From contig QOPD01000003.1 in assembly GCA_003331605.1 (NCBI GenBank), forward strand, positions 31,128 through 95,127: a DNA stretch of 64,000 bases, in the 5' to 3' direction. This stretch comes from SAR86 cluster bacterium (GTDB lineage Bacteria > Pseudomonadota > Gammaproteobacteria > Magnimaribacterales > TMED112). Shown here piece by piece: positions 35,046 through 40,900 of this stretch (positions within the stretch are counted from its first letter, which is position 1; each line of letters begins with the position of its first letter). The notes beneath the pieces are model-generated. The model had not been told where the DNA came from, made no database searches, and saw only the letters and a program-made list of their open reading frames with translations. The translations under genes and the position numbers were made by a program.

Positions 35046-36065
35046 ATGAAAGTTGGACTAAATGGTTTTGGCCGCATCGGCAGAAACATACTTAGAGCAT
35101 ATTTGGAAAGAGGTGACAGCAAATTTGAGATTGTTGCAATTAATGATCTTGCTGACACAACAACGAATGCTCATCTTCTTAAATACGATTCAGTGCATGG
35201 CACGCTAGACTACGATATTTCTTCAAGTGAGGACTCAATATCAGTAGGTAACCAAACCTTTAAGTGTTTTAGTGAAAGAAATCCAGAGGATTTGCCATGG
35301 AAAGAATTGGGAGTGGACGTTGTTTTTGAGTGTACAGGAATCTTCACTACCAGAGAAAAGGCTTCTCTTCATCTTAAAGCTGGAGCTTCAAAAGTAATTA
35401 TTTCAGCGCCTGGCAAAGACGTTGATAGAACTGTTGTATTTGGAGTAAATCATGAAGAACTTGCATCCAACGATGCAATTATTTCCAATGCGTCTTGCAC
35501 AACAAATTGTCTCGCTCCATTGGCCAAGGTTATTAACGACAACTTTGTAATAACCAACGGATTGGTAAATACTATTCACGCTTATACAAATGATCAAAGT
35601 TTGTTGGACGTTTATCATTCAGATTTGCTTAGAGCCAGAGCAGCTGGCCAATCAATGATTCCAACAAAAACAGGTGCTGCAACTGCAGTTGGAGAAGTTA
35701 TTCCAGAGTTAAACGGAAAGCTTAATGGCCTTGCTGTTAGGGTACCTGTTGCCAATGTATCCTTATTAGATTTTACATTTAATACAGAAAAAGATTTTAC
35801 AGTAGAGGAGCTTAATGCTGTACTTGAAGAAGCATCTTTGAATGAGCTAAGTGGTGTATTGGATGTGAATTCAGTTCCGCTAGTAAGCACCGATTTTAAA
35901 GGAAACACCAATTCAAGTGTCTACGATAAATTGCATACACAAAAAATAGATAAAAATACAAAGATTTTAGCTTGGTACGATAATGAGTGGGGCTTCTCCA
36001 ATCGTATGCTAGATCTAACAAGTTATGTTGTTGAAAATTTAGCAACACAAGATATCGCTGCCTAG
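35046..36065 (+). CDS. gapA: Glyceraldehyde-3-phosphate dehydrogenase
   Basis: VGLNGFGRIGRNILRAY, SNASCTTNCLAPLAKV, WYDNEWGFSNRMLDL. Confidence 0.95.
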   Translation: MKVGLNGFGRIGRNILRAYLERGDSKFEIVAINDLADTTTNAHLLKYDSVHGTLDYDISSSEDSISVGNQTFKCFSERNPEDLPWKELGVDVVFECTGIFTTREKASLHLKAGASKVIISAPGKDVDRTVVFGVNHEELASNDAIISNASCTTNCLAPLAKVINDNFVITNGLVNTIHAYTNDQSLLDVYHSDLLRARAAGQSMIPTKTGAATAVGEVIPELNGKLNGLAVRVPVANVSLLDFTFNTEKDFTVEELNAVLEEASLNELSGVLDVNSVPLVSTDFKGNTNSSVYDKLHTQKIDKNTKILAWYDNEWGFSNRMLDLTSYVVENLATQDIAA

Positions 36066-36163
36066 GTTATTTACCTCAGAATGTCTGGCCCAACTTCCAT
36101 TCTGTAAGACTTCTAGGTAGCGATTCCCCTTTTTTTATTAAGTTTGCACCCTATAGATAAACA

Positions 36164-37153
36164 ATGATTAAAGTCGCAGTTGCTGGTGCAACAGGAGTAG
36201 TGGGCACATTACTAGCTAATTACTTAACTAAGGAAAATTTAGAGCTTGACCTCTATGCATCTGAGGCAAGTGTTGGAAAGACAGTTAATATCAAAGGCAA
36301 AGAGTTTTCTCTTAAACCTTTAGTAGAGATTAATGACACCAAATATGACTATATTTTCTTAGCTATATCAGCGGAAAATACAAAAGCTCTTAAACGCAGC
36401 ATCACTTATCCCACAAAATTTTTAGATTTATCTTCAGCCTATAGACAAGACCCTGATACACCTCTTTTACTGTATGGTGTTAATCATCAGGATTATTCCA
36501 ACGAAAATTTTATCGCATTACCTAACTGTGTGGTTGCTCCTGTGGCCAAACCAATAAAAATTATCTCCAATGTTAATTTAGTTAAAAATATATTTATATC
36601 AACTTATCAATCCATAAGCGGTGCAGGCCGAGAAAAAACACATAAGCTTTTAGATGACACAACTAAAGATCTAGAGGCTCTAAAAGCACTGGAGAGTAAA
36701 TTTGATTTTTCCGATAACTGTATAAATCAAATCAACTCATTCAATGTTGTTCCTGCTATAGATGATATTTATGCTGACGGTAGTACAGGTGAGGAAACTA
36801 AGATAAAAGATGAATTAAGTAAGATATTGAAACTTTCAGACGTCACAACAATAGCAACATGCGTAAGAGTCCCTGTTATTCGAGGACATTGTGCCAGCAT
36901 TAATATTGTTAGCAACGAAGCTATAAATCTTACAAATATAAAGGAGCAATTTTTAAACGATCCTGAGTTAAATTTTGACGACGGCGTAATTCCATCTCCA
37001 AGACAAAATGGTAATTCTGAAGTGATTTCCATTGGTAGGCTCAGAGTTTTTCAAGATTCTCCAAATGTAATAAGTTTTTGGGTGGTGGGCGACAATCTTA
37101 ATATTGGTGCGGCCGGGAATGCTTATCGAATTTTTAAATACATCAATGACTGA
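36164..37153 (+). CDS. asd: Aspartate-semialdehyde dehydrogenase
   Basis: VAVAGATGVVGTLL, LPNCVVAPVAKP active-site Cys, YQSISGAGREK, RVPVIRGHCASINI. Confidence 0.93.
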   Translation: MIKVAVAGATGVVGTLLANYLTKENLELDLYASEASVGKTVNIKGKEFSLKPLVEINDTKYDYIFLAISAENTKALKRSITYPTKFLDLSSAYRQDPDTPLLLYGVNHQDYSNENFIALPNCVVAPVAKPIKIISNVNLVKNIFISTYQSISGAGREKTHKLLDDTTKDLEALKALESKFDFSDNCINQINSFNVVPAIDDIYADGSTGEETKIKDELSKILKLSDVTTIATCVRVPVIRGHCASINIVSNEAINLTNIKEQFLNDPELNFDDGVIPSPRQNGNSEVISIGRLRVFQDSPNVISFWVVGDNLNIGAAGNAYRIFKYIND

Positions 37154-38360
37154 TCTGATCGTACAAAAATTTGGTGGAACTTCGGTTGCTAATTTAGACC
37201 GAATTGAAAAAATTGCTGAAATTATAAAATCCTCTGCAGAAATTAATAATGTAGTTGTGGTAATTTCAGCTATGGCCGGCGAGACCGATAGGCTATTTAG
37301 CCTTGGTCAAAAATATTTTAACCAAGACAACATTCGTGAGATGGATGCGCTGCTTTCTACAGGTGAAGTTGTCAGCTCATCCTTGCTTGCAATGTGCCTA
37401 TCAAGCTTAGGGCTTAAAGCCAAATCATTTAATGCTTCTCAGCTTAAACTAATGACCAAAAAAGATAGTTCAAATAAATTTGCAACGATACTTTCAATTG
37501 ATACAGCTTTGATAAAAAATGAAATTGCGCATGGTGTTATCCCTATAATTACTGGTTTTCAGGGTGTCGATGAAAAAGGAGATTTTACAACCCTTGGTCG
37601 TGGTGGGTCGGATACCACAGCTGTGGCAGTAGCAGCTGAACTCAAGGCCAAAGAGTGCCAAATTTATACCGATGTCAAAGGGGTATTTTCTGCAGATCCA
37701 AATAAAGTGAATGATGCCAGAGTTTTGGAATATGTAACTTCTGAAGAAATGTTAGAGCTTTCAGGTCAAGGAGCAAAGGTACTAGCATTGCGTTCGGTTG
37801 AGCTGGGCCATAAATATAAAGTACCAATTAAAGTCTTATCGAGCTTTGAGCAAAGCCAAGGGACAAAAATTATTTATAATGAGCCCACAGATATGGAACA
37901 GTCAGTAGTTACAAGTATTACATCAGAACCTAACCAGGCCAAATTTACTATTTACGGGGGCAAGAGTGGTAATGATTTTTCCTCTTCCGTTCTAAATCTG
38001 ATGGCACAAAAAAATATTTTTGTTGATGTTATTGTGATGAATTACGAGCTAAATGGAGCAATTGACTTTTCATTCACAGTGCAACAAGGTAATTCAGTTG
38101 AGGTTGAATCTATTCTTAAAGAAAATAAAGGCCAACTTTTTGATGATTATATTTCTGAATCAGATTTATCAAAAATTTCGGTAGTTGGTGTCGGCATGCG
38201 TTCACAAACAGGGGTGGCTAGTCGCGTTTTTAGTTGTCTAGAGGGCAGTAAGACGTCACTTAAACTTGTAAGCACATCTGAAATTAAAATAACCTTGGTC
38301 CTTGAAAGCTCCTTAGAAAAAACGACTGTTGAATCCTTGCACAGAGAATTTTTTAAGTAA
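37146..38360 (+). CDS. lysC: Aspartate kinase
   Basis: IVQKFGGTSVANLDRI, TLGRGGSDTTAVAVAAEL, YTDVKGVFSADP; start MTDLIVQKFGG chosen inside ORF 37104..38360. Confidence 0.95.
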   Translation: MTDLIVQKFGGTSVANLDRIEKIAEIIKSSAEINNVVVVISAMAGETDRLFSLGQKYFNQDNIREMDALLSTGEVVSSSLLAMCLSSLGLKAKSFNASQLKLMTKKDSSNKFATILSIDTALIKNEIAHGVIPIITGFQGVDEKGDFTTLGRGGSDTTAVAVAAELKAKECQIYTDVKGVFSADPNKVNDARVLEYVTSEEMLELSGQGAKVLALRSVELGHKYKVPIKVLSSFEQSQGTKIIYNEPTDMEQSVVTSITSEPNQAKFTIYGGKSGNDFSSSVLNLMAQKNIFVDVIVMNYELNGAIDFSFTVQQGNSVEVESILKENKGQLFDDYISESDLSKISVVGVGMRSQTGVASRVFSCLEGSKTSLKLVSTSEIKITLVLESSLEKTTVESLHREFFK

Positions 38361-39705
38361 ATTTCTGCTTTCTTTGATGCATTAACCTCTTAAAGAAACT
38401 TAGGTTAGATTCATTATTGTTAAGTTGTTCATCAACTGCTAAATCTTGAAAACCACTATCGGCTGGCAGCCAGGGTTTTGTTTTGGAAAAACCCAAGTTT
38501 TTGTCAGCTCCAATCCAGGGCATAGGGGTCCTGCAACCATCTCTTCCTTTAAACTCTGGCCAAAACCTTTTTCCAAATGGATCACGAACATCAGCATAGT
38601 CCAATTCGCTTTCATTGAGGCCAAGCTCTTCTCCTTGGTAAATGCATACATTCCCCTTAAGCGAAAGTAGTTTAGCCATAAGTTCTTTTGGTGTTTTTAT
38701 AGATCGTGAAGCAATACGAGTTGAATCATGATTACTAAATGCCCAACAAGGCCATGAATGTGGATTGGTTTTAAAAAAATTATCGACTACATTATCGACG
38801 TAATCGTAATTAAATTCTTCAGATAAGAATTCAAAACTGTAGGCCATATGTAAACGATTTTCAGTGGTGTAGTCACCCATAACTTGGTTGAAGTTGTCTG
38901 CAACGATTTCTCCAACTGAAACAGCATTGTACTTATCAAGGAGGGCACGAATTTTTTGGAGGTAGGGCAGCATCTCAGGTCTTGAGTTATCGTAGATGTG
39001 GTATTGCGTGCCATAAGGATTGTCCTTATTAAATCCTAGAGGTCTAATTTTTTCTGATTCTTTTGGTGGATTGTCTCTTAAGTTAGCATCATGAAATAAA
39101 AAATTTATCACATCAAAACGAAAGCCATCAACACCCAAATTCAACCAATAATGTAATTCATCAAGCATTTGATTTTGAACTTCAGGATTATGGAAATTTA
39201 AATCTGCCTGTTGTTCTAAAAAGTTGTGTAGATAGTAGGCTTGTCTCTTTTCAGACCATTTCCATGCGGATCCACCGAATACCGATAACCAATTGTTGGG
39301 TTCTGAATCATTTAATCCATCAGCCCAAACATACCAGTCACTATAATCATTTTTCTTGGCGGAATTGCTACGTAGAAACCACTCGTGATGTGTAGAGGTA
39401 TGGCTTAGAACTAAATCAATCATAATCTTTAAGTTCTTTTTCTTAAAAACCTCTACAAGCTCAAGAAAATCTTTGTTGCTTCCAAATAGTGGGTCAACAG
39501 TTCGATAGTCTTGAACGTCATAGCCATAGTCGAATTGTGGCGACTTAAAGAAAGGTGAGATCCATACGTAGTCTACGCCAAGATCTTTAATATAATCAGC
39601 TTTATTAATAATGCCTCTTAGATCTCCAACCCCATTGCCAGATGTGTCGCAAAAACTTCTGGGGTAGATTTGATAAATAACCTTATTTTTCCAATTGTCA
39701 GCCAT
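38353..39705 (-). CDS. GH13 alpha-glucosidase/oligo-1,6-glucosidase-like, apparently lacking C-terminal domain C
   Basis: VIYQIYPRSFCDTSGNGVGDLRGI, DLVLSHTSTHHEWF, GFRFDVINF (Asp), SVGEIV (Glu), FSNHDSTR; ends at NLSFFKRLMHQRKQKFT. Confidence 0.87.
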   Translation of the reverse strand: MADNWKNKVIYQIYPRSFCDTSGNGVGDLRGIINKADYIKDLGVDYVWISPFFKSPQFDYGYDVQDYRTVDPLFGSNKDFLELVEVFKKKNLKIMIDLVLSHTSTHHEWFLRSNSAKKNDYSDWYVWADGLNDSEPNNWLSVFGGSAWKWSEKRQAYYLHNFLEQQADLNFHNPEVQNQMLDELHYWLNLGVDGFRFDVINFLFHDANLRDNPPKESEKIRPLGFNKDNPYGTQYHIYDNSRPEMLPYLQKIRALLDKYNAVSVGEIVADNFNQVMGDYTTENRLHMAYSFEFLSEEFNYDYVDNVVDNFFKTNPHSWPCWAFSNHDSTRIASRSIKTPKELMAKLLSLKGNVCIYQGEELGLNESELDYADVRDPFGKRFWPEFKGRDGCRTPMPWIGADKNLGFSKTKPWLPADSGFQDLAVDEQLNNNESNLSFFKRLMHQRKQKFT

Positions 39706-39801
39706 AATGCACAAATTTTTTTATTTCATTAAATTTTTTTGGTAATTAATTTGAAAAAATCATGTAAATATTGCCAAAATGTCACAAAAGGACTGATTTC
39801 A

Positions 39802-39829
39802 TTGCTTTTTGTAAATTTAATCATATCAT
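39802..39829 (+). promoter_or_regulatory. Candidate promoter of the 39836..39912 RNA
   Basis: TTGCTT (39802-39807), 16-bp spacer, TATCAT (39824-39829). Confidence 0.4.
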
Positions 39830-39835
39830 AAACAC

Positions 39836-39912
39836 GGCCTTAAAGATGTTGATTAGTGGCTTAGTTTTTTCGACATTCCTCCTGAGCTGCTAAGATTTTT
39901 AAGGCTTTTTTT
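39836..39912 (+). ncRNA. Candidate small RNA or leader/attenuator ending in intrinsic terminator
   Basis: GCCTTAAAGAT (39837-39847) pairs over 11 bp with ATTTTTAAGGC (39895-39905), inner CTTAG/CTAAG, then T7 (39906-39912). Confidence 0.45.
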
Positions 39913-39970
39913 CAAATTTTTAAATCCTTACCAAACTTTATTTTATATAATTTACTATTCGGAGAGGACA

Positions 39971-40900
39971 TTGACCAATAATAAATTATTACTTGATTTA
40001 GGAGGAACTAATTTAAGAATTGGCTATGGTGATCAAGAGAATCTTTCAATAGACAAAATCACTAAAATCAAGATATCAAATGACAGTGAAATCCTTGCAA
40101 TTATAAAGAAACAATTAGCTGAAAGGCCAGCCAATGAAATTATATTTTCCGCTGCAGGCCCAAAAAGTGGCAATTCAATTGTAATGACAAACAGATCATT
40201 GAATCTAGATGGTGCTGAACTTTCATCATCCTTGGATGTAGACAGCTGTTACATGCTTAATGATTGGGAATCTATAGGGTATTGTTTGCCTTTACTGCAT
40301 GATAGCGACCTTGTATCTATTAAATCTGGAGATAGAAATACCAACCAAACTAGTTTAGCAGTAGGTCCAGGTACTGGACTTGGATTCTCTATTTTAAGAT
40401 ACATTAATCAGGTTCCTTATGTGTTTGCAACTGAGCTGGGCAACGCTAAAAGTTTCAATAATTATTTGCGTGAAGTTTTTGAAATTGGTGATCAAAATAA
40501 TTTCCCTGTGCTTGAGAGTTTTTTATCAGGAAAGGGCATTACCAAGATATATCAAGCTAAATCTGGGCTAATCAAAACATCTGAGGAAATCGTAGATAGT
40601 TATGGCAGCGATGATCTTGCAACTGATATGTTAAATAATTTTGGTAAGTCTATGGGCAGAGTGTTAGCTGATTTAAGCTTAACTTCAATGGCGACAGGAG
40701 GCATATATTTTGCTGGAAGTCTAATGAGAGTTCTTTCGCAGCTTGATGTTATTACTGCGTTAAAAGATGAATTTGATGATCATGTATCAGAACATCATCA
40801 AAGTATACTAAAAAATATTTCTATAAATTTAATTACCAAACCACATACGCCCTTGTATGGGAACTTAAATTATTCAATCGTAAGGAGGCTACATGAATAG
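39971..40900 (+). CDS. glk: Glucokinase
   Basis: LLLDLGGTNLRIGYG, LNDWESIGYCLPLL, VGPGTGLGFS, TGGIYFAGSL; TTG start with SD ggagagg. Confidence 0.85.
   Translation: MTNNKLLLDLGGTNLRIGYGDQENLSIDKITKIKISNDSEILAIIKKQLAERPANEIIFSAAGPKSGNSIVMTNRSLNLDGAELSSSLDVDSCYMLNDWESIGYCLPLLHDSDLVSIKSGDRNTNQTSLAVGPGTGLGFSILRYINQVPYVFATELGNAKSFNNYLREVFEIGDQNNFPVLESFLSGKGITKIYQAKSGLIKTSEEIVDSYGSDDLATDMLNNFGKSMGRVLADLSLTSMATGGIYFAGSLMRVLSQLDVITALKDEFDDHVSEHHQSILKNISINLITKPHTPLYGNLNYSIVRRLHE

Follow-up and report, generated by a model that had tools for sequence, protein, structure and literature searches.

A candidate self-terminated short RNA between divergent GH13 and glucokinase genes in a SAR86 cluster bacterium

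Introduction

The closest described systems to the hairpin analysed here come from rhizobia and from a streamlined marine bacterium. NfeR1, a 123 nt RNA conserved in rhizobia, folds into three hairpins that each expose an unpaired CCUCCUCCC (PMC10746234). The hairpin at positions 39,837 to 39,905 of our window (the whole 64,000-nucleotide stretch of contig QOPD01000003.1 that was analysed) shares with this alpha-r14/NfeR1 family a C/U-rich, anti-Shine-Dalgarno-like motif near the apical loop and an existence without Hfq (PMC10746234). Unlike NfeR1, however, it is a single hairpin with a partly paired CCUCCU, no homologues and no supported targets, and it thus falls outside the family, whose membership is defined by the three hairpins with their unpaired motifs. 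The second system, a hairpin motif of Candidatus Pelagibacter ubique, has approximately 1250 representatives that display covariation (PMC2704228). Here the likeness lies in a single bulged hairpin, followed by a poly-U run in about half of the cases, in a streamlined marine bacterium (PMC2704228), whereas our hairpin is known from one sequence as opposed to some 1250 covarying ones.

Results

Genomic setting of the hairpin

The source genome (SAR86 cluster; 0.94 Mb in 11 contigs) is densely packed, with predicted ORFs covering approximately 97% of it and short spacers in between, as judged by ORF and tRNA prediction over the whole genome. Convergent gene pairs overlap or lie less than 15 bases apart in 98 of 126 cases, leaving no room for a terminator between them. 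The hairpin resides in the spacer between two divergent genes, and the relevant surroundings are the following:

36,051 to 36,129, with U7 at 36,130 to 36,136 (+ strand): conserved structured RNA of approximately 79 nt, between GAPDH and asd
36,164 to 38,360 (+ strand): asd-lysC, convergent with GH13, overlapping the GH13 end by 8 bases on the lysC side
38,353 to 39,714 (– strand): GH13 alpha-amylase-family gene, divergent from glk (annotation, synteny)
39,943 to 39,967 (+ strand): glk promoter –10 region (TATATAAT) and GGAGAGG, 3′ of the hairpin; TATATAAT...ACTATyCGG is common to genus relatives that lack the hairpin
39,971 to 40,900 (+ strand): glk, encoding glucokinase (PF02685) and heading the glk-SSF symporter-GH3 operon (annotation, synteny)

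In this operon SSF denotes a sodium:solute symporter and GH3 a glycosidase. The GH13-glk-symporter gene order is maintained across the genus. In two relatives (G012 and G010) no glk match was found and the symporter is directly divergent from GH13, so that their locus seems to have no glk.

The lysC gene was found in only one of the 21 genus genomes, namely the source genome, which is also the only one to carry asd-lysC between the conserved structured RNA and GH13. This distribution of lysC suggests either its gain by the source lineage or its loss from the other members. In most relatives, a thioesterase gene on the opposite strand occupies the asd-lysC position beside GH13.

The hairpin folds on one strand and ends in a U tract

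Folding with RNAfold resolved the following elements, the stem arms being taken from the list of predicted pairs:

39,837 to 39,847 (+ strand): 5′ arm of the outer stem (GCCUUAAAGAU)
39,854 to 39,864 (+ strand): 5′ arm of the inner stem (UAGUGGCUUAG), with three G-U and zero A-C
39,865 to 39,881 (+ strand): apical loop of 17 nt, holding U6 and the exposed CCUC of CCUCCU
39,882 to 39,892 (+ strand): 3′ arm of the inner stem (CUGAGCUGCUA)
39,895 to 39,905 (+ strand): 3′ arm of the outer stem (AUUUUUAAGGC)
39,906 to 39,912 (+ strand): U7 tract, intrinsic-terminator-like (sequence; genome-wide terminator scan)

The outer stem (GCCUUAAAGAU with AUUUUUAAGGC) comprises 11 bp with one G-U pair and closes just before the U7 tract, exactly as the original prediction had claimed from sequence. 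The CUUAG/CUAAG inner stem of that prediction was not recovered, since the real inner stem is longer and offset (39,854–39,864 with 39,882–39,892; 11 bp, three G-U pairs). The CCUCCU motif (39,878–39,883), which had been described as exposed, is so for its first four bases, but the last two are paired in the stem.

The minimum free energy of the 39,836–39,912 segment amounted to –25.1 kcal/mol (z –4.3), and none of 200 shuffled sequences was as stable. Likewise, when hairpins before U-runs were sought on both strands of 400 dinucleotide shuffles of the 265-nt spacer, none reached –25 (the best being –22.2). The complementary strand of the hairpin folded to –11.7 (z –1.05), a difference between the strands that arises because the hairpin contains four G-U pairs internally but not a single A-C mismatch. 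As the departures of the stems from a palindrome are G-U and never A-C, this suggests that the element is read as RNA on the + strand. A stable hairpin with a U tract immediately after it is the build of an intrinsic terminator and, going by the modelled fold, the hairpin with its U7 tract is real and should be able to stop transcription. It occurs as a single copy in the source genome.

An outlier among the terminators of the genome

Intergenic sequence throughout the genome, as delimited by ORF and tRNA prediction, was scanned for hairpins before U-runs. Only two orphan hairpins with a U-tract before a gene were stronger than –20 kcal/mol, and the second of these (contig C4, position 194,647) corresponds to a glutamine riboswitch folded from the opposite strand. 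The riboswitch itself (RF01739, 71.5 bits; C4 approximately 194,673–194,725, or L160:14,673–14,725) lies on the – strand, upstream of a minus-strand gene. This leaves the 39,837–39,905 hairpin as the only strong orphan terminator hairpin of the 0.94-Mb genome that lacks an explanation.

With the intrinsic terminators of this genome it shares a GC-closed stem and a U tract directly after it. However, most gene-end terminators of this genome are compact, with GC-rich stems of 8–12 bp and loops of 3–6 nt, whereas the candidate stacks two stems beneath a loop of 17 nt and does not follow the end of any gene on its strand. Because it is an orphan before glk while gene-end terminators are mostly compact with small loops, the candidate is an outlier by both position and build. 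In architecture it is nearer to the conserved RNA at 36,051–36,136 than to the gene-end terminators.

Relatives lack the hairpin and keep the glk promoter

In 15 related loci the GH13/glk spacer measures 75–158 bases, as compared to 265 here, and the hairpin is absent from all 15. The right-hand part of the spacer, TATATAAT...ACTATyCGG, is common to several genus relatives, and this conservation implies that glk has its own promoter 3′ of the hairpin. The TATAAT (39,946–39,951) and GGAGAGG (39,961–39,967) that the original prediction had placed just before glk, separate from the putative RNA, are indeed present.

When 203 SAR86-order genomes were searched with a single-sequence covariance model, the filters of which may lose weak matches, none yielded a homologue at E 0.01. 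Weaker matches that were inspected either fold differently or sit in coding sequence. The Rfam search that had been proposed as a check returned no family, with the Rfam 15 covariance models giving no match at gathering or at relaxed thresholds. At the nucleotide level, comparison with 101 relatives and with phages, plasmids and viral contigs yielded at most short AT-rich chance matches. In G007 the loop region did match a histidine-kinase gene on its antisense strand (E 3e-4 for one genome), as an antisense target might, but we took this as chance because the source genome has just a remote kinase without any such match. Judging from these comparisons, the hairpin is restricted to one species.

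Promoter, loop targets and RNA chaperones

The promoter proposed for a small RNA is placed as follows:

39,802 to 39,829 (+ strand): proposed promoter TTGCTT-16-TATCAT (39,802–39,807 and 39,824–39,829), not above chance

Although this sequence is there, its consensus score of 8/12 is what chance would provide: such matches number approximately 16 per shuffled spacer, and 26% of shuffles place one of this grade 5–8 nt ahead of the hairpin. Moreover, the pair was not listed by a consensus promoter scanner.

Hfq (PF17209) was found in none of the 202 SAR86-order genomes searched, while control genomes were positive, and both ProQ and CsrA are absent from the source genome. An Hfq- or ProQ-dependent trans-acting sRNA, which relies on a chaperone encoded by its host, is therefore not what this genome could be expected to use. 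A clear Shine-Dalgarno motif precedes approximately 23% of the genes examined. When the loop was matched against 870 gene starts, the best energy was equalled or beaten by 53 of 60 shuffled queries, and glk ranked 58th among the 870 start regions. With this control failed and Hfq, ProQ and CsrA missing, the anti-Shine-Dalgarno targeting of the original prediction was not supported. By analogy, the anti-Shine-Dalgarno reading is a resemblance to NfeR1-type RNAs, with no supported mechanism.

Discussion

A short self-terminated RNA is tentatively favoured

On the grounds of its architecture and its strand-specific pairing, we lean towards the hairpin being a candidate short, self-terminated, Hfq-independent RNA, to which we give a probability of roughly 0.4. 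The RNA would be read from the + strand, measure approximately 77 nt and consist along its entire length of one long hairpin that serves as its own intrinsic terminator. The element may have been inserted, or have grown, between the GH13 and glk promoters in the source lineage. We infer that transcription would start near 39,836 and end near 39,912, producing a stable RNA that does not depend on Hfq. Its likeliest job would be local, in that the flanking sugar genes may be tuned by the RNA itself or by its being made and terminated between the divergent promoters. Action in trans via the C/U-rich loop is conceivable, and target prediction gave no support for it. That a species-specific and recently born Hfq-independent sRNA regulates glk-symporter-GH3 by loop pairing to AGGAGG sites we deem very improbable. 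The claim that the element is an independent sRNA rather than a leader is consistent with the strand-specific, self-terminating hairpin and with the conserved glk promoter that intervenes before the gene, but the promoter of the sRNA itself stays at chance level.

Alternative readings

The main rival is that the hairpin acts as an intrinsic terminator and insulator, stopping asd-lysC transcription that has read through GH13 in antisense before it enters the glk operon. For Rickettsia prowazekii, published work describes how convergent genes give rise to antisense RNA by read-through (PMC3027695). In the window, lysC runs tail-to-tail into the GH13 end with an 8-base overlap and no room for a terminator, and the strand of the hairpin fits. 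Among the 21 genus genomes, lysC and the hairpin are both confined to the source genome, and it is the alignment of these two lineage-specific features that makes the insulator attractive. In most relatives, moreover, the opposite orientation of the thioesterase means that this gene would not be a source of such read-through. Nevertheless, insulation is not the rule in this genome: although tight convergent pairs prevail, a far-side terminator-like hairpin was seen in only 14, mostly weak and irregular. The long-looped build likewise differs from that of most gene-end terminators of the genome. Rho, furthermore, would as a rule be expected to terminate a read-through transcript that stays untranslated for 1.4 kb, which speaks against insulation here. 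Taken together, we regard the insulator as somewhat unlikely.

It is unlikely that the hairpin has no RNA function at all, and is instead a chance or decaying inverted repeat, or an element acting at the DNA level, within an expanded spacer. Its restriction to one species, its single copy and the AT-rich spacer around it would agree with such an origin. Against it, none of the 400 spacer shuffles produced a hairpin as strong, the strand asymmetry is pronounced with the U7 tract directly at the stem, and spacers in this streamlined genome are short.

The original prediction also offered a sugar-responsive attenuator, that is, a conditional terminator within a longer glk-SSF-GH3 leader that sugar would relieve. 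The hairpin has the right strand for this and precedes a sugar operon, and UUCCUCCU is complementary to AGGAGGAA (approximately 39,999–40,008, within glk). However, the conserved glk promoter sits 3′ of the terminator, which argues against a simple leader, and the predicted start at 39,836 leaves no leader at all 5′ of the hairpin. No competing antiterminator emerged either, with the hairpin remaining intact in the fold of 39,836–40,020 (a leader modelled from the predicted start), nor did Rfam reveal a known aptamer that could make it a glk riboswitch or attenuator. As relatives with the same glk operon also manage without the hairpin, we consider attenuation improbable. Finally, a minus-strand reading as a GH13 leader was rejected because its fold (–11.7, z –1.05) is no better than chance.

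A conserved structured RNA in the same window

The original prediction ranked the hairpin as the best candidate here for something undescribed. That rank goes instead to the element at 36,051–36,136, located 3.7 kb from the hairpin in the same window, which has the comparative support that the hairpin lacks. It comprises an 11-bp outer stem, a 6-bp inner stem and a 14-nt loop, with an invariant loop sequence UGGCCCAACUU and a near-invariant loop core GGCCCAACUU. Its covariance model recovered it in 17 of the 21 genus genomes and, beyond these, at only one weak place, within a coding sequence resembling elongation factor P in another family. In relatives it occupies the equivalent site, between the thioesterase and the GH13 end. 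Across 16 distinct sequences, compensatory changes affect 7 of 17 pairs, with 98.2% of cells paired. None of 500 shuffles matched the alignment in four of five measures, and the structure scored above every slid version of itself. G-U outnumbers A-C by 16:1 on the + strand, indicating that this RNA is read on that strand. Rfam gave no match for it.

In most relatives the conserved RNA stands alone with a TAAAAT/TAGAAT-like box upstream, and in three it ends in U8, a combination that fits an independent small RNA. In the window, as well as in G009 and G013, GAPDH lies directly before it, and in the window its stem overlaps the GAPDH stop codon, which points here to a 3′-UTR element or a 3′-derived RNA. 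No 10-nt perfect match to the complement of its loop was found elsewhere in the genome.

The two elements share an 11-bp outer stem, an inner stem, a long loop and, in some relatives of the conserved RNA, a poly-U run after the stem. They nevertheless have no similarity to each other, and the conserved RNA model finds a single place in the genome. Whereas the one is conserved and covarying, the 39,837–39,905 hairpin is one sequence. On this comparative evidence, the conserved RNA is the stronger undescribed small-RNA candidate, and its testability across many genomes makes it the lead of greater value.

Significance

The hairpin is an ordinary kind of element, found in one species. If it insulates against read-through, it would illustrate how a tightly packed genome can accommodate a convergent operon that its relatives lack. 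If it is transcribed as the short self-terminated RNA that we tentatively favour, it would exemplify the recent birth of a small RNA in a marine lineage that is streamlined and has no detectable Hfq.
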